From positions 1 to 50,050 of the forward strand of contig JAFRLY010000060.1 in assembly GCA_017431005.1 (NCBI GenBank): a DNA stretch of 50,050 nucleotides, read 5' to 3'. Positions 11,398-23,072 of this stretch are shown piece by piece. This stretch comes from Clostridia bacterium (GTDB lineage Bacteria; Bacillota; Clostridia; Christensenellales; Aristaeellaceae). The notes under the pieces were generated by a model. The model had not been told where the DNA came from and ran no database searches. It saw only the letters and a program-made list of their open reading frames with translations. The position numbers and the translations under genes are program-made. Each line of letters begins with the position of its first letter. The first letter of the stretch is position 1.

Positions 11398-11426
11398 TTG
11401 CAAATGCGTGGGATCGATAGTATAAT
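11398..11426 (+). promoter_or_regulatory. Promoter of the zinc-ribbon gene
   Basis: TTGCAA (11398-11403), 17 bases, then a perfect TATAAT (11421-11426). Transcription from about 11433 would give a leader of roughly 165 bases before the start at 11598, which is long for a gene of this kind. Confidence 0.75.
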
Positions 11427-11469: not shown

Positions 11470-11581
11470 GTGGGTCGTGGTTCCCATGAAGTGGGGACGC
11501 GTATTCGACATGTGGGGATTTTTGCGCTAACGAGTGGGAAAACGGTTGGGATTTGTCCCAATTTCGGTCCGCACAGGTGGG
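11470..11581 (+). promoter_or_regulatory. Helically phased GTGGG repeat array in leader
   Basis: GTGGG occurs at 11470, 11491, 11512, 11534 and 11577, with GTTGGG at 11545. The first four are 21, 21 and 22 bases apart, close to two DNA turns each, so they face the same side of the helix. Most continue as GTGGGGA or GTGGGAA. The motif resembles the TGGG direct repeats bound by MraZ, and mraZ itself lies 2.4 kb downstream. An RNA role is also possible, because a TTGGGA/TCCCAA hairpin (11546-11551 with 11556-11561) lies inside the transcribed leader. Confidence 0.5.
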
Positions 11582-11597: not shown

Positions 11598-12023
11598 ATG
11601 AATCTGGTGAAGTGTCCCCGTTGTGATCTCAATTATATTCTTGAAGGGGAGAAGCTCTGCAAGGTCTGCCAGCGGGAGCTGAAGGGCGACAGGCGGGACT
11701 CGGAAGTGGAGCTCTGCAGCATCTGCAATGAGGCGCCGGCCCTGCCGGGCAAGGATGTATGCCTGTTCTGCCTGAAGGAAATGAACAAGAGCAACAGTAC
11801 ACCGGATGATGAGAGCATGGAGCGGGAAACGCTGGAGCCGGATAACATCGGAGATATGGATTCCATGAGCGGAATGGACGAGATCATCCCTGAGGTGGAT
11901 GATGATTCGGCCATTCCCAGCCAGGAGTTCGGGGAGATTGAAAACGAACTGAGCCTGGAGGACGTCCGTGAGGACGAGGAGCGCGGTGCGGAAGAGGATG
12001 AGGAAGAGGACGAAGACATCTGA
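11598..12023 (+). CDS. Zinc-ribbon protein with acidic tail, function unknown
   Basis: A 141-residue protein with four CxxC pairs in the first 65 residues (CPRC, CKVC, CSIC, CLFC), forming two likely treble-clef or ribbon zinc sites. The second half is strongly acidic and ends with long Glu/Asp runs. Similar conserved proteins occur in Clostridia without assigned function. AAAGGAGG before ATG 11598 fixes the start. It is preceded by a strong promoter and the phased GTGGG leader, and followed after 27 bases by a metallophosphoesterase gene. The acidic tail suggests contact with a basic partner such as RNA polymerase or a ribosomal protein; that is inference only. Confidence 0.75.
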   Translation: MNLVKCPRCDLNYILEGEKLCKVCQRELKGDRRDSEVELCSICNEAPALPGKDVCLFCLKEMNKSNSTPDDESMERETLEPDNIGDMDSMSGMDEIIPEVDDDSAIPSQEFGEIENELSLEDVREDEERGAEEDEEEDEDI

Positions 12024-12050: not shown

Positions 12051-12758
12051 ATGCGCCTGTTTGCCATTGGAGACCTGCACCTGTCCGGCGGGGACGATAA
12101 ACCCATGGACGTGTTCGGTCCGCAGTGGGACAGGCACTTTTTGCATATCCGGGAGAATTGGGAACGGCTGGTCAGACCGGAGGACACTGTGCTGATTCCG
12201 GGGGATATCAGCTGGGCCATGCAGCTGCAGCAGGCAATTCCGGATCTGCAGGATATCGGAAGACTGCCGGGCAGAAAGGTGCTGCTGAAGGGAAATCATG
12301 ATTACTGGTGGAGTTCCGTGACCCGCGTGCGGGAGGTTCTGCCTCCCGGTATGACAGCCCTGCAGCACAGCGCGGAGGATATCGGCGGCTGTGTGGTTTG
12401 CGGAACCCGGGGATGGCTGATTCCGACAACCGGCGCTCCCCTCGGTGAGGCGGATGAAAAGCTTTACCGCCGGGAGGCACAGCGCCTGAATCTGGCGCTG
12501 GATCAGGCGGAAACACTGGCGGAAGGCAGACCCATCGTGGTGATGATGCACTATCCGCCGCTGACGGCAGCCGAGCGGGAAACGTTGTTTACGGAACTGC
12601 TGGAGCAGCGCAAAGTTCATACCGTTCTTTACGGGCATCTGCACGGGGGCGGAATCAGTCTGGGATTCAACGGAGTCCATCAGGGGATCCGGTACAGGCT
12701 GGTATCCTGCGACAGCATCGGGTTCTGCCCCGTGGAAATCCCACTCGAAGAAGAATAA
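12051..12758 (+). CDS. Metallophosphoesterase
   Basis: A 235-residue calcineurin-like phosphoesterase with a complete motif set: DLHLS at 8-12, GDISW near 51, GNHDYWW near 81, HYPP near 166 and GHLHGG near 196. The YWW after GNHD and the overall length fit the family of predicted phosphohydrolases often placed in COG1768. It is presumably cytoplasmic, since no signal peptide is present. GAGAGGAAC precedes the ATG. It lies between the zinc-ribbon gene and degV with short gaps (27 and 22 bases), so the three are likely co-transcribed. Substrate unknown. Confidence 0.85.
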   Translation: MRLFAIGDLHLSGGDDKPMDVFGPQWDRHFLHIRENWERLVRPEDTVLIPGDISWAMQLQQAIPDLQDIGRLPGRKVLLKGNHDYWWSSVTRVREVLPPGMTALQHSAEDIGGCVVCGTRGWLIPTTGAPLGEADEKLYRREAQRLNLALDQAETLAEGRPIVVMMHYPPLTAAERETLFTELLEQRKVHTVLYGHLHGGGISLGFNGVHQGIRYRLVSCDSIGFCPVEIPLEEE

Positions 12759-12780: not shown

Positions 12781-13650
12781 ATGATCAGGACAGCGGTAAT
12801 GACGGATACCAACAGCGGAATCTCTGTCCAGGAGGGGCAGGAGATGGGCGTCTATGTACTGCCCATGCCCGTGGTGGTGGACGGGAAGGAATATACGGAG
12901 GGTGTGGATATCACCCATGAAGCGCTCTTTGAAGCCCTGGAGGCCGGCAAACCGGCAATGACTTCCCAGCCAAGCCCTGCGGACGTCCGGGCACTCTGGG
13001 ACAAGGCGCTCGCAGACGGCGCGGAACAGGTGGTCTACATTCCCATGTCCTCCAAGCTCAGCGGTTCCTGTGATGCAGCAGCCGCTCTTGCTGAAGATTA
13101 CGGCGGCAAGGTGGCTGTGGTGGATAATCACCGGATATCCGTGACGCTTCGCTCCAGCGTGAAGGACGCCCTGTATCTTTCCAGACTGGGAAAGACGGCG
13201 GAAGAGATCAAGGCGCAGCTTGAACGCAACGCTTTTGACGCCAGCATCTATATCTGTGTCAATACGCTGAAATATCTGAAGCGGAGCAACCGGGTCACAG
13301 CGGCGGGGGCCTCGCTGGCGACGGCCATGAACCTGCATCCGGTGCTGAATATCCGGGGCGGGAAGCTGGATGCCCAGTGTGTGGTCCGCGGTGACAAGCA
13401 TACGCAGAAGACCCTGATCAAGCTGATGGAAACGGATCTTGAAAAGAGGTTCCGCTATATACCCCGAAACCAGATGCGCATGTATACCGCCGGCACCTTC
13501 GTCAACCCGGAGGATGCTGAGGAATGGACCGGCCGGGTACGGAAGGCTTTCAAGGATGAAAGCATCAGGTATTATCCGCTGTCCTGCTCCATTACCTGCC
13601 ATGTGGGGGAAAACGCGGTCGCCATTGCGATGGCGATCAAAGGTGAATAG
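12781..13650 (+). CDS. DegV family fatty-acid-binding protein
   Basis: A 289-residue DegV-type (FakB-like) protein. Features are the N-terminal MTDTNSGIS strand-loop, TSQPSPADV near 61 in the position of the conserved ligand-binding TSQPS loop, MSSKLSGSC near 85, and LKYLKRSNRVT near 165. Proteins of this fold bind a fatty acid and, when paired with FakA, present it for phosphorylation. No fakA gene is in the window. It is the first of two DegV paralogues here (see 26573-27427). A strong terminator follows at 13697-13729. Confidence 0.9.
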   Translation: MIRTAVMTDTNSGISVQEGQEMGVYVLPMPVVVDGKEYTEGVDITHEALFEALEAGKPAMTSQPSPADVRALWDKALADGAEQVVYIPMSSKLSGSCDAAAALAEDYGGKVAVVDNHRISVTLRSSVKDALYLSRLGKTAEEIKAQLERNAFDASIYICVNTLKYLKRSNRVTAAGASLATAMNLHPVLNIRGGKLDAQCVVRGDKHTQKTLIKLMETDLEKRFRYIPRNQMRMYTAGTFVNPEDAEEWTGRVRKAFKDESIRYYPLSCSITCHVGENAVAIAMAIKGE

Positions 13651-13696: not shown

Positions 13697-13729
13697 ACAG
13701 GAGCCGGAAACTGAGGCTCCTGTTTTTTT
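13697..13729 (+). terminator. Terminator after degV
   Basis: ACAGGAGCC (13697-13705) pairs perfectly with GGCTCCTGT (13715-13723), followed by a run of T. It closes the zinc-ribbon/phosphoesterase/degV unit and isolates the dcw cluster. Confidence 0.85.
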
Positions 13730-13872: not shown

Positions 13873-13901
13873 TTGCGCATCAGAAAAATGTGTGCTAAAT
13901 T
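13873..13901 (+). promoter_or_regulatory. Promoter of the dcw cluster (mraZ)
   Basis: TTGCGC (13873-13878), 17 bases, TAAATT (13896-13901). The start of transcription would fall inside the G-run repeats described next, so a protein bound there would block initiation or early elongation. Confidence 0.5.
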
Positions 13902-13903
13902 GG

Positions 13904-13958
13904 TGGGGAAAAAGGGGAATTTATCCCTAAAAAGGGGAAAAAGTGGTAGAAAAGGGGG
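13904..13958 (+). promoter_or_regulatory. Probable MraZ operator (G-run repeats)
   Basis: GGGG or GTGG cores begin at 13905, 13914, 13934, 13943 and 13954, about 10 bases (one helical turn) apart or a multiple of it, embedded in A-rich DNA; a CCC at 13925-13927 fills the skipped turn on the other strand. MraZ is known to bind direct TGGG-type repeats before its own gene. The last repeat includes the ribosome binding site of mraZ. Confidence 0.65.
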
Positions 13959-13966
13959 AAGGATAC

Positions 13967-14422
13967 GTGGCTGGCTTTATCGGATCCTACTCCCACAGCA
14001 TGGACGCAAAAGGCCGTCTGGTGATCCCCCAGAGCTTCCGGGACAAGCTGGGAGAACAGTTTTGCGTCGCCCCTTCCTATGATTTCCAGTCCATTGCCAT
14101 CTATCCGACAGAAATGTGGGAAAAACGCAGTGAGGCTTTTGAAAAGCTGGGTCATCTGAACCCTTCGCTGAACCGCTATCTGGAACAGTTTTACGCGCTG
14201 AGTTACAACGAACAGTCCTGCGACGGGCAGGGGCGCGTGCTTCTTCCGGTGAACATCCGCCAGAAGATTCTCGGAGAAGAGCGGGATGTGGAGCTGACCG
14301 GCGCCAACGACCATATCCGTGTCGTGGCCAGCAGCGTCAGCGCCAGAAGCTGGGATCAGTTCCGCAGCGAGCTGCCTGATCTGCTGAATCTCATTGCCGG
14401 ACTGGAGAAGCAGGATTCCTGA
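13967..14422 (+). CDS. mraZ: Transcriptional regulator MraZ
   Basis: Double-AbrB DNA-binding protein that represses its own dcw operon. The 151-residue protein has two swapped-hairpin domains with their DxxxR signatures, DAKGR near residue 12 and DGQGR near 85. I chose the GTG at 13967 because it gives the typical start (GFIGSYSH before DAKGR) and GGGGGAAGG lies just upstream; a GTG at 13943 in the same frame would add eight residues but lies inside the operator. It is not followed by rsmH, its usual partner. Confidence 0.93.
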   Translation: MAGFIGSYSHSMDAKGRLVIPQSFRDKLGEQFCVAPSYDFQSIAIYPTEMWEKRSEAFEKLGHLNPSLNRYLEQFYALSYNEQSCDGQGRVLLPVNIRQKILGEERDVELTGANDHIRVVASSVSARSWDQFRSELPDLLNLIAGLEKQDS

Positions 14423-14454
14423 GAGATATCACGAATTAAGAAAGAGGGATAACC

Positions 14455-15060
14455 ATGATGGAGGCTTCCGTCCGGGCAGGCAGAAGGCTGCAGGATGTTT
14501 CTGTACGCTGGCAGGAAAGCCGGGACCGCAGAGATCAGCGGCAGCAGCTTGCAAACATCCGGAGGAAACGGATGTCCTGCGCAGACAGCCTGCAGGATTT
14601 CCAGAAGACGCAGGACTGGACCGGCCAGATGTCCATGAGCCCCAGCGGCCGGTTCCAGGTGATTGAGGACAGCCGGAAACGGGAGCCGCTGGTGACACGG
14701 GAAGGCCTGCAGTGGAATTTCGGATGGGGCGTGCTGATTGCCGTGGCTGTGCTGTTTGCGGTTGTTCTGCTGGCAGATGCGGTTCTGATCGGAAACTGCA
14801 GCCGCTCCATTGACAGGCTGAGCAGCCGGATTGAGATGATTGCCCAGAAGAACGGGCAGCTGTCCGCCGAACTAAGCTACAGCTCCGGTGACATCAGCGT
14901 GTGCACGGAGGCTGTGAAGCTGAACCTGATTTCCTCAAGCGGGGCCATGACGGTGAAGCTGACAGCTCCCCAGAGCGCCAGCCTGACCTTCGCCGGAACG
15001 GCTCAGGGAAATGCTGCGCACAGTGCGGGCAGCCGGATCGCGTCCATCGTGGGAGACTGA
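14455..15060 (+). CDS. FtsL-like cell division protein
   Basis: A 201-residue single-pass membrane protein: charged cytoplasmic segment (1-83), transmembrane helix at about 84-106 (WGVLIAVAVLFAVVLLADAVLI), then an extracytoplasmic segment that begins with a short coiled coil (SIDRLSSRIEMIAQKNGQLSAEL) and ends in a Ser/Ala/Thr-rich part. This topology and its position between mraZ and murE fit FtsL or a FtsL/DivIC-like protein that joins DivIB at the septum. Sequence identity alone would not prove it, and the long cytoplasmic part is atypical. The ATG follows GAGGGA; a second ATG is one codon later. Confidence 0.6.
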   Translation: MMEASVRAGRRLQDVSVRWQESRDRRDQRQQLANIRRKRMSCADSLQDFQKTQDWTGQMSMSPSGRFQVIEDSRKREPLVTREGLQWNFGWGVLIAVAVLFAVVLLADAVLIGNCSRSIDRLSSRIEMIAQKNGQLSAELSYSSGDISVCTEAVKLNLISSSGAMTVKLTAPQSASLTFAGTAQGNAAHSAGSRIASIVGD

Positions 15061-15085
15061 AGGTCAGTCTCCCGTTTCGTGTAGT
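15051..15085 (+). terminator. Perfect hairpin overlapping the ftsL-like stop codon
   Basis: GGGAGACTGA (15051-15060) pairs over all 10 bases with TCAGTCTCCC (15064-15073), loop AGG. The left arm contains the stop codon. Only short T groups follow, so it is a candidate attenuator or mRNA cleavage and stability element between ftsL and murE. Confidence 0.45.
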
Positions 15086-15111
15086 TTTGGAACAGTAAAG
15101 GAAGATGACAT

Positions 15112-16581
15112 ATGCGCTTGCGGGAACTGATTCAGGAGATGCCCTATACGGAGGAAGTCCGGGGCGATCTGGATACAGATATACGGGAAATCACGTCCTC
15201 CAGCCGGGACAAGACGGACGCCGGGCTGTTTTTTTGCATAGTCGGCGCGCGGTTTGACGCCCATGACTATGCGTGGGAAGCAGTGGAGAACGGATGTGTC
15301 GCGCTGATTGTTGAGCATTTTGTGGACCTGCCGGTTCCCCAGGTGCGGGTCAGCAACGGCCGGGCGGCCATGGCCAGAATTGCCGAAGCTTTCTACGGCT
15401 TCCCCTCGCGGGAAATGAAAATGATCGGCATCACCGGCACGAAGGGGAAAACCACGACCACCTATCTGCTGAAAAGCATCTGCGAGAAGGCCGGTTATAC
15501 GTGCGGGATTATCGGGTCCACCGGAAGCGTGGTCGGCAGCAGTCACCTGGACAGCAAGCTGACGACGCCGGATCCCATCGACCTGCAGAAAACCCTGCGG
15601 ATGATGCGCGATGCCGGCGTGCAGGTGGTCTGCATGGAGGTCAGCGCTCATGCCATTGACATGTGCCGGCTGGACGGTATGACCTTTGAGGTCGGGTGCT
15701 ATACCAATCTGAGTCAGGACCATCTTGATTATTTCTACACCATGGAGCGCTATTTTGAGACCAAAAAGCGGTTCTTCACCGAAGGAATGGTCAGGAATGC
15801 GGCGCTGAACGCGGATGAGGAGACCTCCGGGAATATTCTGAAGGACCTGCAGATTCCGAACATCACCTACGGAATCTGCGTGAATGCGGACGTGTTCGCG
15901 AGAGATCTTGAAATCACCGAGGAAGGCGTCCGGTTCAACGTGCAGCTCCACGGCATGCATGACTTCGCCGTCCGTATGCGGATGACCGGCATGTTCAATG
16001 TTTATAACGCTCTGGCGGCAGCCAGCTGCGCGCTGATTCTGGGAATCGAACCCGACCGGATCCGGGAGGGGCTGGAAGCGGTGACGCGGGTGCCCGGCCG
16101 GATCGAAATGCTGCAGACCGGGACCCCGTACAAGGTGATCCTGGATTACAGCCATTCGCCGGACGCGCTGGAAAATATTCTGAAAACGGTGCGCCAGTTC
16201 ACCCGGAACCGCGTCATCTGCCTTTTTGGCTGCGGAGGCGACCGGGATAAGGGCAAACGTCCCATGATGGGCGAGATCGGAGGCCGGCTGGCGGATTACT
16301 GCATACTGACTTCGGACAATCCCCGGACGGAAAATCCGATGGTTATTCTGGCGGCCATAGAAAAGGGCATCAAACCCACCGGCAAGCCTTACCGGGTGAT
16401 CGAAAACCGGAAAGAGGCCATCCGGGCCGCGCTGACCATGGCGGAGGACGGGGACGTGATTGTCCTGGCGGGAAAAGGCCATGAGACCTATCAGGAGATC
16501 ATGGGCGTGAAGCGGCCTTTTGATGAGAAAGTAATCGTCAGCGAGCTGCTGCGGGAAATGAAGCTGGAGCAGGCGGATTAA
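15112..16581 (+). CDS. murE: UDP-MurNAc-tripeptide synthetase (meso-DAP ligase)
   Basis: Adds the third residue of the peptidoglycan stem peptide using ATP. The 489-residue protein has the P-loop GTKGKTTT at 109-116, the TTPDP loop at 151-155, EVSAHA at 176-181, and DNPR at 402-405. DNPR is the signature of enzymes that add meso-diaminopimelate rather than lysine, so the wall is predicted to be of the DAP type. AAGGAAG lies before the ATG at 15112. The next gene, mraY, begins 13 bases after the stop, and murF, usual between them, is absent. Confidence 0.97.
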   Translation: MRLRELIQEMPYTEEVRGDLDTDIREITSSSRDKTDAGLFFCIVGARFDAHDYAWEAVENGCVALIVEHFVDLPVPQVRVSNGRAAMARIAEAFYGFPSREMKMIGITGTKGKTTTTYLLKSICEKAGYTCGIIGSTGSVVGSSHLDSKLTTPDPIDLQKTLRMMRDAGVQVVCMEVSAHAIDMCRLDGMTFEVGCYTNLSQDHLDYFYTMERYFETKKRFFTEGMVRNAALNADEETSGNILKDLQIPNITYGICVNADVFARDLEITEEGVRFNVQLHGMHDFAVRMRMTGMFNVYNALAAASCALILGIEPDRIREGLEAVTRVPGRIEMLQTGTPYKVILDYSHSPDALENILKTVRQFTRNRVICLFGCGGDRDKGKRPMMGEIGGRLADYCILTSDNPRTENPMVILAAIEKGIKPTGKPYRVIENRKEAIRAALTMAEDGDVIVLAGKGHETYQEIMGVKRPFDEKVIVSELLREMKLEQAD

Positions 16582-16594
16582 GGAGCGTATCGTG

Positions 16595-17611
16595 ATGTAC
16601 CGTATCATTGCCGGAATGTTTTTATCCCTGGGGATTGCCCTGGCGATGGGGCCGAAGCTGATTGCCTGGCTGAGAAAGCTGCACTTCGGTCAGACGATCT
16701 ATGATCTGGGCCCTGCGCATCAGCAGAAGCAGGGGACTCCGGTAATGGGCGGACTGATGATGGCTGCGGGCTTTACGGCTGCCTCTCTGATCTGCCATCC
16801 CGCCGGATGGAACGGCGCGGCGGACTGGATCTGGCCGCTGCTGGCGGTCTCTCTTCTGAGCATGGGAGTCGGCTTTGCGGACGACTATATCAAAGCGGTT
16901 AAGAAGCGGCATGACGGCCTGCAGCCGATGCAGAAGATTATCGGGCAGTGTGTTGTGGCAGTGGGCTTCAGCTGTTATTGCTATTTTTCTCCGTCGGTCG
17001 GGAGCGCGATTTATATCCCCTTCGCGGGAGTGAACTGGGACCTGGGCATCTGGTATATTCCGGTAATGAGCCTTCTGGCGATCTTCATGGTAAACAGCAG
17101 CAACCTGCAGGACGGCCTGGACGGGCTGCTGAGCACCATCACCGCGGTGCATGCGGGCGCGTGGACAGTGATCTGCATCATCCTGACGATGATGCCCGGA
17201 CTGCTGAAGGGCGCTGACGGGAATACCGCCGGATATGCCACGACGGCTGTGTTCGGGGCCGCCGTGACAGGCGCGTGCGTCGGGTTCCTGCGGTTCAACC
17301 GCTATCCGGCCAAAACCTTTATGGGAGACACCGGCAGCATGCTGCTGGGCGGAGCCAGCGTGGCGATGGCCATGGTAACCCGGCTGCCTGTTTTGCTGGT
17401 GCTGACCTTCTTCTGCCCGGTGATGAGCAGCGTCAGCGTGATCCTTCAGCGGTATTATTTCAAGCTGACCCACGGGAAGCGCATCTTCCTGATGAGTCCG
17501 GTTCATCATCATTTTGAGAAAAAAGGGTATTCTGAGACGCAGATTGTCAGCATGTACGCGGGCATCACGCTGCTGCTGAGCCTGGCCGCTGTGGCCGGCA
17601 TCTGCGGATAA
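16595..17611 (+). CDS. mraY: Phospho-MurNAc-pentapeptide transferase
   Basis: Integral membrane enzyme that links phospho-MurNAc-pentapeptide to undecaprenyl phosphate, giving lipid I. The 338-residue protein has about ten hydrophobic segments and the family motifs: the GTPVMGG loop near residue 48, the catalytic GFADDYIK near 93, NSSNLQDGLDGL near 168, GDTGS near 248 and the MSPVHHHFEKKG histidine motif near 305. AGGAG at 16581-16585 serves either GTG 16592 or ATG 16595; I chose the ATG. It overlaps no neighbour and lies 27 bases ahead of murD. Confidence 0.97.
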   Translation: MYRIIAGMFLSLGIALAMGPKLIAWLRKLHFGQTIYDLGPAHQQKQGTPVMGGLMMAAGFTAASLICHPAGWNGAADWIWPLLAVSLLSMGVGFADDYIKAVKKRHDGLQPMQKIIGQCVVAVGFSCYCYFSPSVGSAIYIPFAGVNWDLGIWYIPVMSLLAIFMVNSSNLQDGLDGLLSTITAVHAGAWTVICIILTMMPGLLKGADGNTAGYATTAVFGAAVTGACVGFLRFNRYPAKTFMGDTGSMLLGGASVAMAMVTRLPVLLVLTFFCPVMSSVSVILQRYYFKLTHGKRIFLMSPVHHHFEKKGYSETQIVSMYAGITLLLSLAAVAGICG

Positions 17612-17638
17612 TCCATACGGGAGAACAGGAGGCGCTCT

Positions 17639-18997
17639 ATGAACTGGGAAGGCAAAAAAGTGCTGGTTGTCGGTATGGCCCGAAGCGGCGTGGCGGCGTC
17701 GCAGCTGCTGCGCGCCTACGGGGCGGAGGTGACTGTGAATGACAGCAAATCCGAGGAGGAGCTGGGCGAACAGCTGAACTCCCTGGAAGGGCTGAAGCTT
17801 GAACGGCGCTTCGGCTGCGGAGCCATGGATCTGCTGAAGGGGCAGGACTGCCTGATTATCTCTCCCGGCATTCCGGATACAGCGCCTTTTGTCCGCAAGG
17901 CCAAGGAAATGGGTATCTATGTTATCGGCGAACTGGAGCTTGCCTCCCAGCTGAGCAAAGGGACCCTGGTTGCGGTCAGCGGCACCAACGGAAAGACGAC
18001 CACTGTTTCCCTGCTGGGAGAGATTTTCCGTAACAGCGGGAAGGTGACCCATGTGGTGGGAAATATCGGTTATCCCTATTCCCTGGCCGCACTGGTCAGC
18101 AAGCCGGAGGATGTTATGGTCTGCGAGGTGTCCTCCTTCCAGATGGAAACGGCAGACACCTTCCATCCCCATATCGCCGTCCTGACCAATATTTCGGAGG
18201 ATCATCTGAACCGTCACGGCACGATGGAGGTTTATACCGAACTGAAGATGCGTATATTCCGGAACCAGACGCCGGAGGATTACGCGGTCTTCAACGCGGA
18301 TGATCCGGGACTGGAAAACCTGCATAAACAGGTCAGGAGTCGGGTGCTGCAGTTCAGCCATAAAAAGGAAGTCTCCGAAGGCGCCTTCGTGAGGAACGGG
18401 GAAGTGATCGTCCGCCTGAACGGCGAGGAACGCAGAGTCTGCGCTGTATCGGAAATCCGCATTCCCGGAGCCCATAATCTGGAGAACGCGCTCGGCGCTG
18501 TCTGCGCCGCAGCCGCCATGGAGGTTCCGATTCCCGTGATCCGCCACAGCCTGAAGAGCTTCCGGGGTGTGGAGCACCGGATCGAGAGCGTTCGTGAGCT
18601 GGACGGCATTGAGTACATCAATGACAGCAAGGGAACGAATGTGGATTCCACGATCAAAGCCGTGGAGACCATGAACAAGCCTACCGTCATCATTCTCGGA
18701 GGATATGACAAGCATACGTCCTTTGATCCGCTGGCGGCTGTCATGGTGAAAAATGATATGATCCGCGAAGCGGTTCTGATCGGGGAAACAGCGGGACAGA
18801 TCGAGCAGAGCCTGAAAACGGCCGGCTTTGCGGGCGTCCATCGGGCGGGCAGCATGCGGGAAGCGGTGGAGCTGAGCCGCAGCCTGGCTTCCGAGGGATG
18901 GAATGTGCTGCTTTCTCCCGCCTGTGCGAGCTTCGACATGTTCAGGGACTACGAGGAGCGGGGCCGCAAGTTTAAGGAGATTGTCCATGGATTATAA
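17639..18997 (+). CDS. murD: UDP-MurNAc-L-alanine:D-glutamate ligase
   Basis: ATP-dependent addition of D-glutamate to UDP-MurNAc-Ala in the cytoplasm. The 452-residue protein has an N-terminal UDP-binding fold (VVGMARSG at 10-17), SPGIP at 75-79, the P-loop GTNGKT at 115-120, EVSSFQ near 163, the N-H-rich IPGAHNLENALGA near 274, and the C-terminal NDSKGTN and GGYDK loops. CAGGAGG lies before ATG 17639. Its last 11 bases overlap the start of the divIB gene, implying translational coupling. Confidence 0.97.
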   Translation: MNWEGKKVLVVGMARSGVAASQLLRAYGAEVTVNDSKSEEELGEQLNSLEGLKLERRFGCGAMDLLKGQDCLIISPGIPDTAPFVRKAKEMGIYVIGELELASQLSKGTLVAVSGTNGKTTTVSLLGEIFRNSGKVTHVVGNIGYPYSLAALVSKPEDVMVCEVSSFQMETADTFHPHIAVLTNISEDHLNRHGTMEVYTELKMRIFRNQTPEDYAVFNADDPGLENLHKQVRSRVLQFSHKKEVSEGAFVRNGEVIVRLNGEERRVCAVSEIRIPGAHNLENALGAVCAAAAMEVPIPVIRHSLKSFRGVEHRIESVRELDGIEYINDSKGTNVDSTIKAVETMNKPTVIILGGYDKHTSFDPLAAVMVKNDMIREAVLIGETAGQIEQSLKTAGFAGVHRAGSMREAVELSRSLASEGWNVLLSPACASFDMFRDYEERGRKFKEIVHGL

Positions 18998-20063
18998 CGG
19001 CGGGAATGCGGCGCCTCCCCGGGGAGGGGAGCCGCAGCCCCGCAGAACTGCCGGCGGCAACGGCGCCGGCCAGGGCGAGGGGCAGGTCCGGGACTGGCAG
19101 CGGGATACCTGGTACGGGCCTGCGCCGGCTTACGGAAATCCCTTCGATGAGCCCGAAGACGCGCCTGAACTGCGGGACAGCAGATCCGAGAACGTGAATG
19201 AGCATCTGGGCGAATTCTGGGATCAGCAGACAACGGGCTATCAGTATACCGGGGCAAACAGGAGCGCCGGAGAACGGAAAGCTGCGCCCCGCCGGAACCG
19301 GACGAAAGCCTCTTCCAAAGCTGCCGGCAGGAGTCCCGGCGCCGGAAAAATCCTGCTGATCCTGATCTGTCTGCTGATCGGGACCTGGATTACCCTGCGC
19401 TTTACCATCTTTAATCTGCAGGATATCCGGGTCGAGGGAAATCAGGTGCTCACGGACGATGAAATCCTCCGGATCAGCGGGATACAGGCCGGAGACAGCC
19501 TGCTGCGCCTGGATGAGTCAGAGGTTGAAAAGCGTATCAACGGCGATTACAGACTGCAGTTCAGATACCTGGAGAAGAAGATTCCCGGACAGGCGACGCT
19601 CCGGATCCGGGAGCGTGAAGCCTGCTGCTGGTTTACTTACGGCGGTATTCTGTATACCATGGATAAAAACCGGATGATCATGTTTGAAACGGAGGACCTG
19701 AACCTGCGCCCGGCGGAGCTGGTGGAGGTCAAAGGGCTGAAGATCCGGTCCGGCTGCCGGGTAGGGCAGACACTGACGCTGAATGACACGAGCCAGGAAA
19801 CGCTGATCAGCGGTCTGTTCCTGGAAATGAAGGTCCTCGGATGCACAAAGCTGATTCAGGAGGCTGATCTGAGCAACACAGGCTCTCTGCTCATGATGAC
19901 CCGGGACGGCTATACCGTCAGCATGGGAGACATGACAAACCTGCACGCGAAGCTGCGCAGCACGCTGCTGGTGCGGGAAAAGCTGAGAGAAATGGAGCTG
20001 AGCGGCGGAACCATCAGCGTGATCAATCCGGAGAATCCGGTCTATTCTCCCTCTGCTGTATAA
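18987..20063 (+). CDS. divIB: Cell division protein DivIB/FtsQ
   Basis: A 358-residue bitopic membrane protein of the divisome. It has a long hydrophilic, Gly/Pro/Arg-rich cytoplasmic part (1-118), one transmembrane helix (about 121-140) and then a POTRA domain starting at FNLQDIRVEGNQVLTDDEIL, followed by the beta domain of the FtsQ family. ATG 18987 follows AAGGAG and overlaps the end of murD. The cytoplasmic part is much longer than in most relatives and may hold an extra binding site. A strong internal promoter for ftsA follows the gene. Confidence 0.88.
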   Translation: MDYNGGNAAPPRGGEPQPRRTAGGNGAGQGEGQVRDWQRDTWYGPAPAYGNPFDEPEDAPELRDSRSENVNEHLGEFWDQQTTGYQYTGANRSAGERKAAPRRNRTKASSKAAGRSPGAGKILLILICLLIGTWITLRFTIFNLQDIRVEGNQVLTDDEILRISGIQAGDSLLRLDESEVEKRINGDYRLQFRYLEKKIPGQATLRIREREACCWFTYGGILYTMDKNRMIMFETEDLNLRPAELVEVKGLKIRSGCRVGQTLTLNDTSQETLISGLFLEMKVLGCTKLIQEADLSNTGSLLMMTRDGYTVSMGDMTNLHAKLRSTLLVREKLREMELSGGTISVINPENPVYSPSAV

Positions 20064-22894: not shown

Positions 22895-22917
22895 ATGCAC
22901 AGCAAACGACCTTTCAG

Positions 22918-23035
22918 CGCCTCTTCAGGGACGGGTGAAATTCCCTACCGGCGGTAAAGCCCGCGAACCGAAGTTCTCTTCGGCCGATCCGGTGAAATTC
23001 CGGAGCCGACAGTACAGTCTGGATGAAAGAAGAAA
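22918..23035 (+). promoter_or_regulatory. FMN riboswitch (RFN element)
   Basis: The conserved core is plain: TTCAGGGACGGGTGAAATTC near 22924, ACCGGCGGTAAAGCCCGCGA near 22947, GATCCGGTGAAATTCCGG near 22986, and GCCGACAGTACAGTCTGGAT closing with GAAAGAAG. The P1 stem is CTCTTC with GAAAGAAG. It senses flavin mononucleotide and shuts off the downstream riboflavin uptake gene. The expression platform includes a 9-bp hairpin at 23073-23106. Confidence 0.95.
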
Positions 23036-23072
23036 CGGCTGCGTTATACGCCGGGATACCGGCGCTCTCGTA

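Follow-up and report, generated by a model that had tools for sequence, protein, structure and literature searches.

The window analysed here is a stretch of 50,050 nucleotides of a Clostridia bacterium of the family Aristaeellaceae, and its features relevant to this work are listed in Table 1. A promoter and a long leader carrying GTGGG repeats are followed by genes for a zinc-ribbon protein, a phosphoesterase and a DegV-family protein, and then by mraZ. The array thus precedes the zinc-ribbon gene and not mraZ and the dcw genes; mraZ is served by a separate promoter and operator of its own. The zinc-ribbon protein contains four CxxC motifs and ends in a very acidic tail; its family matches were weak and stayed below threshold.

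Table 1. Leader, gene and operator features of the window
Feature	Position	Strand	Remarks
Promoter of the zinc-ribbon unit	11398..11426	+	TTGCAA, 17-base spacer, TATAAT; both hexamers together 10/12
GTGGG box 1	11470..11474	+	
GTGGG box 2 (+21)	11491..11495	+	
GTGGG box 3 (+21)	11512..11516	+	
GTGGG box 4 (+22)	11534..11538	+	
Perfect inverted repeat TTGGGATTTGTCCCAA	11546..11561	+	Opened by TTGGG core; read from the letters
GTGGG box 5 (+43)	11577..11581	+	Directly before the likely ribosome binding site
Zinc-ribbon protein gene	11598..12023	+	141 aa, acidic tail; Pfam matches below cut-offs only
Calcineurin-like phosphoesterase gene	12051..12758	+	PF00149
degV-family gene	12781..13650	+	PF02645; between phosphoesterase gene and mraZ
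Likely intrinsic terminator	13698..13729	+	8-bp stem, 9-base loop, T7; read from the letters
mraZ promoter and operator	13873..13958	+	Promoter TTGCGC, 17, TAAATT (by reading)
GTGGGG of mraZ operator	13903	+	
Composite AGGGGAATTTATCCCTAAA of mraZ operator	13913..13931	+	
GTGG of mraZ operator	13943	+	
G-run of mraZ operator	13954	+	
mraZ, proposed regulator	13967..14422	+	GTG start; PF02381; one place in genome

The original prediction had counted degV as part of the unit, which does not hold generally: a third gene-sized open reading frame precedes mraZ in two of the 34 congener loci with mraZ (degV in L044 and an untyped frame of similar size in L046). The mraZ start lies 1.4–1.5 kb past the zinc-ribbon start in 32 of these 34 loci and 2.4 kb past it in two, including the window; in distant loci the distance is 1.4–1.8 kb. 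The gene was present in 34 of the 35 congener loci fetched (the exception, L045, is at a contig end), and its operator lies 1.3–2.3 kb downstream of the leader boxes. The gap before the mraZ operator measures 191–265 bases in 31 loci and 92 in L074, where a spurious frame was probably taken as the last gene; L077 and L078 could not be placed. A scan of the window for terminators with loops of 3–8 bases gave no terminator-like site, the 9-base loop at 13698..13729 being outside its range. As a crude terminator scan of the congener loci marks some of them and not others (the window is unmarked), transcriptional read-through into mraZ is possible.

Downstream of mraZ (13967–20063 of the window) we found a 201-AA open reading frame with no Pfam match, followed by Mur-ligase (murE-like), mraY-like, murD-like and FtsQ-type genes. 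The usual neighbour of mraZ, rsmH (mraW), is not beside it in the window and lies on another contig (G000:C49); it was present in 19 of the 21 genomes of the genus searched. The window also carries an FMN riboswitch (RF00050, 116 bits) at 22917–23038.

The promoter before the zinc-ribbon gene had been described as perfect, which is correct for the −10 hexamer but not for the −35, since TTGCAA agrees with TTGACA in four of six positions. The ATG at 11598 is separated from the −10 by 171 bases, against about 165 given before for the leader. The GTGGG starts at 11470, 11491, 11512 and 11534 (steps 21, 21 and 22) and the further copy at 11577 were confirmed in the letters of the window. The copy claimed at 11545 reads GTTGG, with a TTGGG core from 11546, and a sixth GTGGG, absent from the original prediction, is found at 11408 in the promoter spacer. 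The inverted repeat TTGGGATTTGTCCCAA resembles the composite of the mraZ operator minus one base; the window's own leader has this imperfect composite only and lacks the perfect box.

GTGGG is rarer in the window than expected (55 copies vs. a shuffle mean of 114). The pattern GTGGG-N15-18-GTGGG-N15-18-GTGG gave two overlapping matches, both in this leader, and none in 100 shuffles of the window; across the 3.0-Mb, 85% complete assembly the same two matches were the only ones, and the reversed control also gave two. Helical phase calculated from the window gave p 0.006 for the five leader GTGGG and p 0.08 for all six leader GTGG. Phase from the window alone is therefore modest and suggestive, and becomes decisive only with the relatives added.

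Conservation and helical phase of the leader boxes

The zinc-ribbon gene was found in 36 of the 37 genomes of the genus (own included), and a TTG...TATAAT promoter precedes it in all 36 congener loci. The array-bearing group consists of uncultured Clostridia of the gut, and its relatives in a named collection are Clostridia MAGs, many of them from ruminants. The leader is 168–199 bases long in 33 of the 36 loci and 39–41 bases in three. A lack of repeat conservation in close relatives, named by the original prediction as its refutation, was not observed: all but one of the 33 long leaders, and so 32 of the 36 congener leaders, hold at least two GTGG, and their spacing is helical. The three short leaders (L005, L012, L013) have the same promoter and no array. 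In a midpoint-rooted tree built on the zinc-ribbon and MraZ proteins, their genomes form one clade nested among array bearers, which makes a single loss of the array in this clade probable.

The phase tests excluded the three short leaders and, of the 33 long ones, dropped seven to give a non-redundant set of 26 leaders less than 70% identical. In this set the distances between GTGG pairs show a period of 10.5 bp with a mean cosine of 0.76 (176 pairs), vs. a maximum of 0.26 in 1000 trials of random placement, a null that ignores ancestry, and GTGG ranks first for phase among the 4-mers with at least ten pairs. A distant set was cut by hand from the identity list and comprises 40 of 74 loci (L120, L125, L126, L128, L130 and L132–L167 minus L161); L120, L125 and L126 (59–63%) were kept in, L127, L129, L131 and L161 (62–66%) were left out, and L120 and L125 are possibly congeners. 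At least two GTGG occur in 11 of these 40 leaders and a clear array in seven. The period was 10.45 bp with a cosine of 0.90 and a null maximum of 0.52 (47 pairs in 11 leaders), with GTGG again first. Removal of L120, L125 and L126 left the period unchanged, the cosine being 0.89 and the null maximum 0.57.

The boxes are biased towards one strand (100 GTGG vs. 9 CCAC in the 26 leaders). Successive steps of 21 bases were counted 25 times, of 84 twelve times and of 42 nine times, and those of 10–11 only eight times; steps of two, four and eight turns thus outnumber single turns, while the sequence between the boxes changes. When positions are counted from the last box, taken as the GTGG whose distance upstream of the start codon is closest to 43 bases (box 4 in the window, not box 5), a GTGG stands at −84 in 22 of the 26 leaders (within 2 bp, rows −82 to −85 summed), and others are found at −105, −42, −64 and about −135. 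Weak AAGTG[ACT] copies in the non-redundant leaders fall on the same lattice (n = 10, cosine 0.88). The original prediction had set the 21-base step apart from the 10-base step at mraZ; the steps do differ, but 21 bases equal two turns of a 10.5-bp lattice, on which steps of one, three, four and eight turns also occur. A period equal to the B-DNA repeat, together with unconserved spacers, points to a protein on one face of double-stranded DNA. Contiguous repeats of about 10 bp, typical of known MraZ sites, are missing from most leaders.

Several other origins of the spacing were rejected. An upstream peptide or codon ruler does not fit, as the period-3 cosine is 0.165 vs. 0.76 at 10.5, and steps of 11, 22, 31 and 43 break the frame. 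Iterons and DnaA boxes are direct repeats, roughly two-turn or clustered; the leaders differ from them in their unconserved spacers, and no replication gene was seen alongside. Only 1 of 99 leader boxes is within one mismatch of the DnaA-box 9-mer consensus, TGTGGATAA, which speaks against a DnaA box cluster. Iterons, segregation signals and G-quadruplexes were set aside by reasoning alone.

A composite box in leaders and mraZ operators

The mraZ operators of the congeners are close to TTTGTGGGGAAAAAGGGAANNNATCCCAAAAA...AAAAGTGGTAGAAAGGGG, 32 fitting a first rule and all 34 a looser one. Within them, GTGG stands at 0, 20 and 40 in L064 (G036) and at 0, 10 and 41 in L061, L069, L072 and L074. 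The second box of the mraZ operator has CC 13 bases past its start, and this composite form (GTGG, 9 bases, CC) is common to leader boxes and mraZ operators. In the leaders, 37 of 99 boxes have CC at +13 and 16 have it at +12, with 0–7 at other offsets; in the distant set the counts are 14 and 11 of 45, respectively. With a looser box pattern, CC in the mraZ upstream regions peaks at +12 and +13 (33 and 27 of 245), and counted from the first mraZ box it peaks at +20 to +23 (25–44). In the coding control, 17 of 110 GTGG are followed by CC at +13, and the offsets +8, +14, +15 and +21 have counts as high or higher.

The composite patterns used for searches, including that of the distant-locus comparison described below, were written after the mraZ operators and some leaders had been viewed. 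RKGGRN6TCCCWAAA gave 30 matches in 37 genomes (approximately 98 Mb), 18 of them at mraZ, three in this leader and nine scattered. With 36 matches to the reversed control, the total shows no excess, and only the location of the matches counts as evidence. GTGGN7TCCCNAAA gave 26 matches; six of these have A or T ahead of AAA, a split made post hoc, and all six were at mraZ or in this leader, three at each. A matrix built from the mraZ boxes, with each genome left out in turn, placed 65 of 310 top-10 matches on the plus strand of the leader, where about 7 were expected, and five on the minus strand; the leader held the single best match for only 12 of the 31 genomes.

Shorter patterns proved less useful. 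GTGG-N8-CCC was rejected as a specific signature, with 310 matches in this genome vs. 459 in the reversed control; it also fits tRNA T-arms. As it is unspecific, weight was put on the longer pattern and on location. Among the matches listed for GTGG-N16-18-GTGG-N16-18-GTGG in the 37 genomes there was no excess over the reversed control, and no regulon could be called from it; some matches of this loose kind we take, by eye, to resemble oriC clusters of DnaA boxes. In the 13 mraZ loci fetched from other families, GTGG recurs at a 10-bp step in five (L081–L084, L089) and at 20 in L088, while four have no such pair; L085 and L092 were not located and L087 was misplaced.

MraZ is an AbrB-fold regulator and is reported to form rings. 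It was found at a single place per genome in all 23 congeners searched, any second match being, from its position, the second domain of the protein. When eight MraZ proteins of this group were combined in a profile, it matched the MraZ structures 1n0e, 9sx6, 9qlg and 9qlr in the PDB; a better-scoring match is an engineered repeat protein of which only 26 residues are covered. The earlier idea of a second MraZ target gains indirect support from the shared composite box, the mraZ operators and the single MraZ in each of the 23 congeners.

Alternative explanations of the array

Judged from these sequence comparisons, it is likely that the leader is a helix-phased operator in double-stranded DNA, read most likely by MraZ, which would probably repress the zinc-ribbon/phosphoesterase operon. 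As with the MraZ operators of mraZ and the dcw genes, its GTG(G) direct repeats are on one strand and in helical phase, and they lie downstream of the −10 of the promoter that would be controlled; its box is also the composite of this group's own mraZ operators. The leader array differs in that it precedes the zinc-ribbon operon and extends towards the ribosome binding site, and in that its boxes span 105–135 bp at distances of mostly two, four or eight turns instead of forming contiguous 10-bp repeats. As neither these contiguous repeats nor the position before mraZ was found, the leader would be a variant, not a plain member, of the MraZ operators.

According to the accessible text of PMC7761207, MraZ sites lie downstream of the −10 and have a repeated GTG motif, with four repeats of 7 nt separated by 3-nt spacers. 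In Mollicutes, the repeats are AAAGTG[T/G] (Fisunov 2016, as cited in the accessible text of PMC8475190), and the AAGTG core recurs here in the weaker copies on the lattice; the same text places the motif only at mraZ in M. genitalium, unlike the second locus described here. All direct MraZ sites described in the open-licence literature searched, as far as its text was accessible, are at mraZ, and that literature gave no description of an operator of this kind before a zinc-ribbon gene.

The phased DNA operator could instead be read by another DNA-binding protein with an MraZ-like site, the mraZ operator then being read by both proteins or the likeness being due to chance. We consider this unlikely, although the steps of the leader (21, 42 and 84) are unlike those of the mraZ operator (10 and 41), and the three congeners that have lost the array keep mraZ and its operator. 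The array and the composite mraZ operator are also not always found together: of nine distant loci with the composite operator, four (L135, L138, L140 and L150) lack an array upstream of the zinc-ribbon gene, while L120 and L165 bear an array and, by the same pattern, no composite operator. What is shared, however, is the whole composite GTGG-N9-CC, beyond a run of G. Moreover, among 33 distant loci with mraZ the composite operator is present in five of seven array bearers vs. four of 26 others (Fisher p 0.009, with ancestry not corrected and a post hoc pattern).

The original prediction had also offered an RNA element as an alternative, that is, hairpins or a protein-binding RNA in the leader acting on translation or termination. 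This finds no support genus-wide and is improbable as an account of the repeats. Rfam searches at two thresholds gave no family for the leader, the one match (E 2) being far below its gathering score; no consensus structure was found over 33 leaders with column-shuffle nulls, and the last box showed no covariation over 26 leaders (p 0.47). A 10.5-base period would also have no reason in single-stranded RNA. The leaders do fold more stably than shuffles (z −2.0 for the window, with 7 of 200 shuffles as good; mean z −2.6 for 33 leaders against mononucleotide shuffles, a weak control). Against column shuffles, three grouped alignments have the better fold, with a strong effect in the group described next and a weak one in another. 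In L004, L006–L011, L014 and L016 the −84 box sits inside a helix of 7 pairs, GTG.GCYG/CRGC.CAC (−105 to about −70). The helix is paired in 95% of cells and has three pairs changed on both sides, which 5 of 500 shuffles reach, and no slide and 0 of 500 shuffles reach its covariation score; these shuffle counts are optimistic, the nine leaders having been chosen by eye after a ten-leader group was folded. The helix may be an RNA hairpin or a DNA dyad added in that group, and it does not explain the lattice.

Phased A-tracts could by themselves make curved DNA for transcription or for nucleoid proteins, the GTGG boxes being by-products. A- and T-tracts of at least 4 bases indeed keep phase with the boxes, with R 0.74 and 0.61 overall and R 0.70 and 0.67 for tracts over 10 bases away from every GTGG, and they recur about every 10.5 bp as in curved DNA. 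They precede the box centre by 4.3 and 3.1 bases (0.4 and 0.3 turn), at many different turns. Pairs of tracts reach a cosine of 0.48 in the leaders; the gap before the mraZ operator gives 0.12 and a coding stretch −0.27. In both leader sets AAAA ranks second among the phased words. Yet GTGG is the best-phased word in both, and curvature leaves unexplained its strand bias and its CC partner, which makes this explanation highly improbable. Unlike plain curved DNA, the leaders combine the tracts with strand-specific GTGG boxes 0.3–0.4 turn away. Chance combined with shared ancestry is practically negligible: the leaders are homologous and of near-constant length, and the random-placement nulls ignore ancestry, but the 33 long leaders have a median identity of 42%, box subsets differ between tree neighbours and the distant set repeats the period.

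Proposed control of the zinc-ribbon operon by MraZ

As the comparison of leaders shows, the GTGG boxes, many with CC at +13, sit on the 10.5-bp lattice and so occupy one helix face over approximately 105–135 bp, mostly two, four or eight turns from each other, and the A/T-tracts are in phase with them in the manner expected of bent DNA. MraZ, encoded just downstream, is the likeliest reader to judge from the shared box. It would bind the transcribed leader behind the strong promoter and wrap or loop it, possibly between boxes eight turns apart, and would probably repress the zinc-ribbon/phosphoesterase operon, activation being possible. As MraZ is an activator in mycoplasmas (accessible text of PMC7761207), the sign of control could be either. 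The operon would belong to the same circuit as the control by MraZ of mraZ itself and of the division and cell-wall genes. The reach of MraZ can be wide, with about 23% of E. coli gene expression affected according to the same text, citing Eraso 2014.

A bolder and rather doubtful form of this proposal is a nucleosome-like operator. Here, the 105–135 bp of the leader would be wrapped on a ring-shaped MraZ, with the GTGG/CC boxes facing the ring at a two-turn pitch, the A/T-tracts bending the DNA and two composite boxes 84 bp, or eight turns, apart. This arrangement would be kept as a geometric ruler while nearly all of the intervening sequence turns over, and would tie the zinc-ribbon operon to division control.

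If control by MraZ is correct, the leader would be a second and much longer MraZ operator with another pitch, recognisable by its helical phase after sequence identity is gone. Its natural variants in dozens of genomes, together with the deletion in one clade, would make the binding geometry of MraZ testable, and the zinc-ribbon/phosphoesterase operon would gain a link to cell division.
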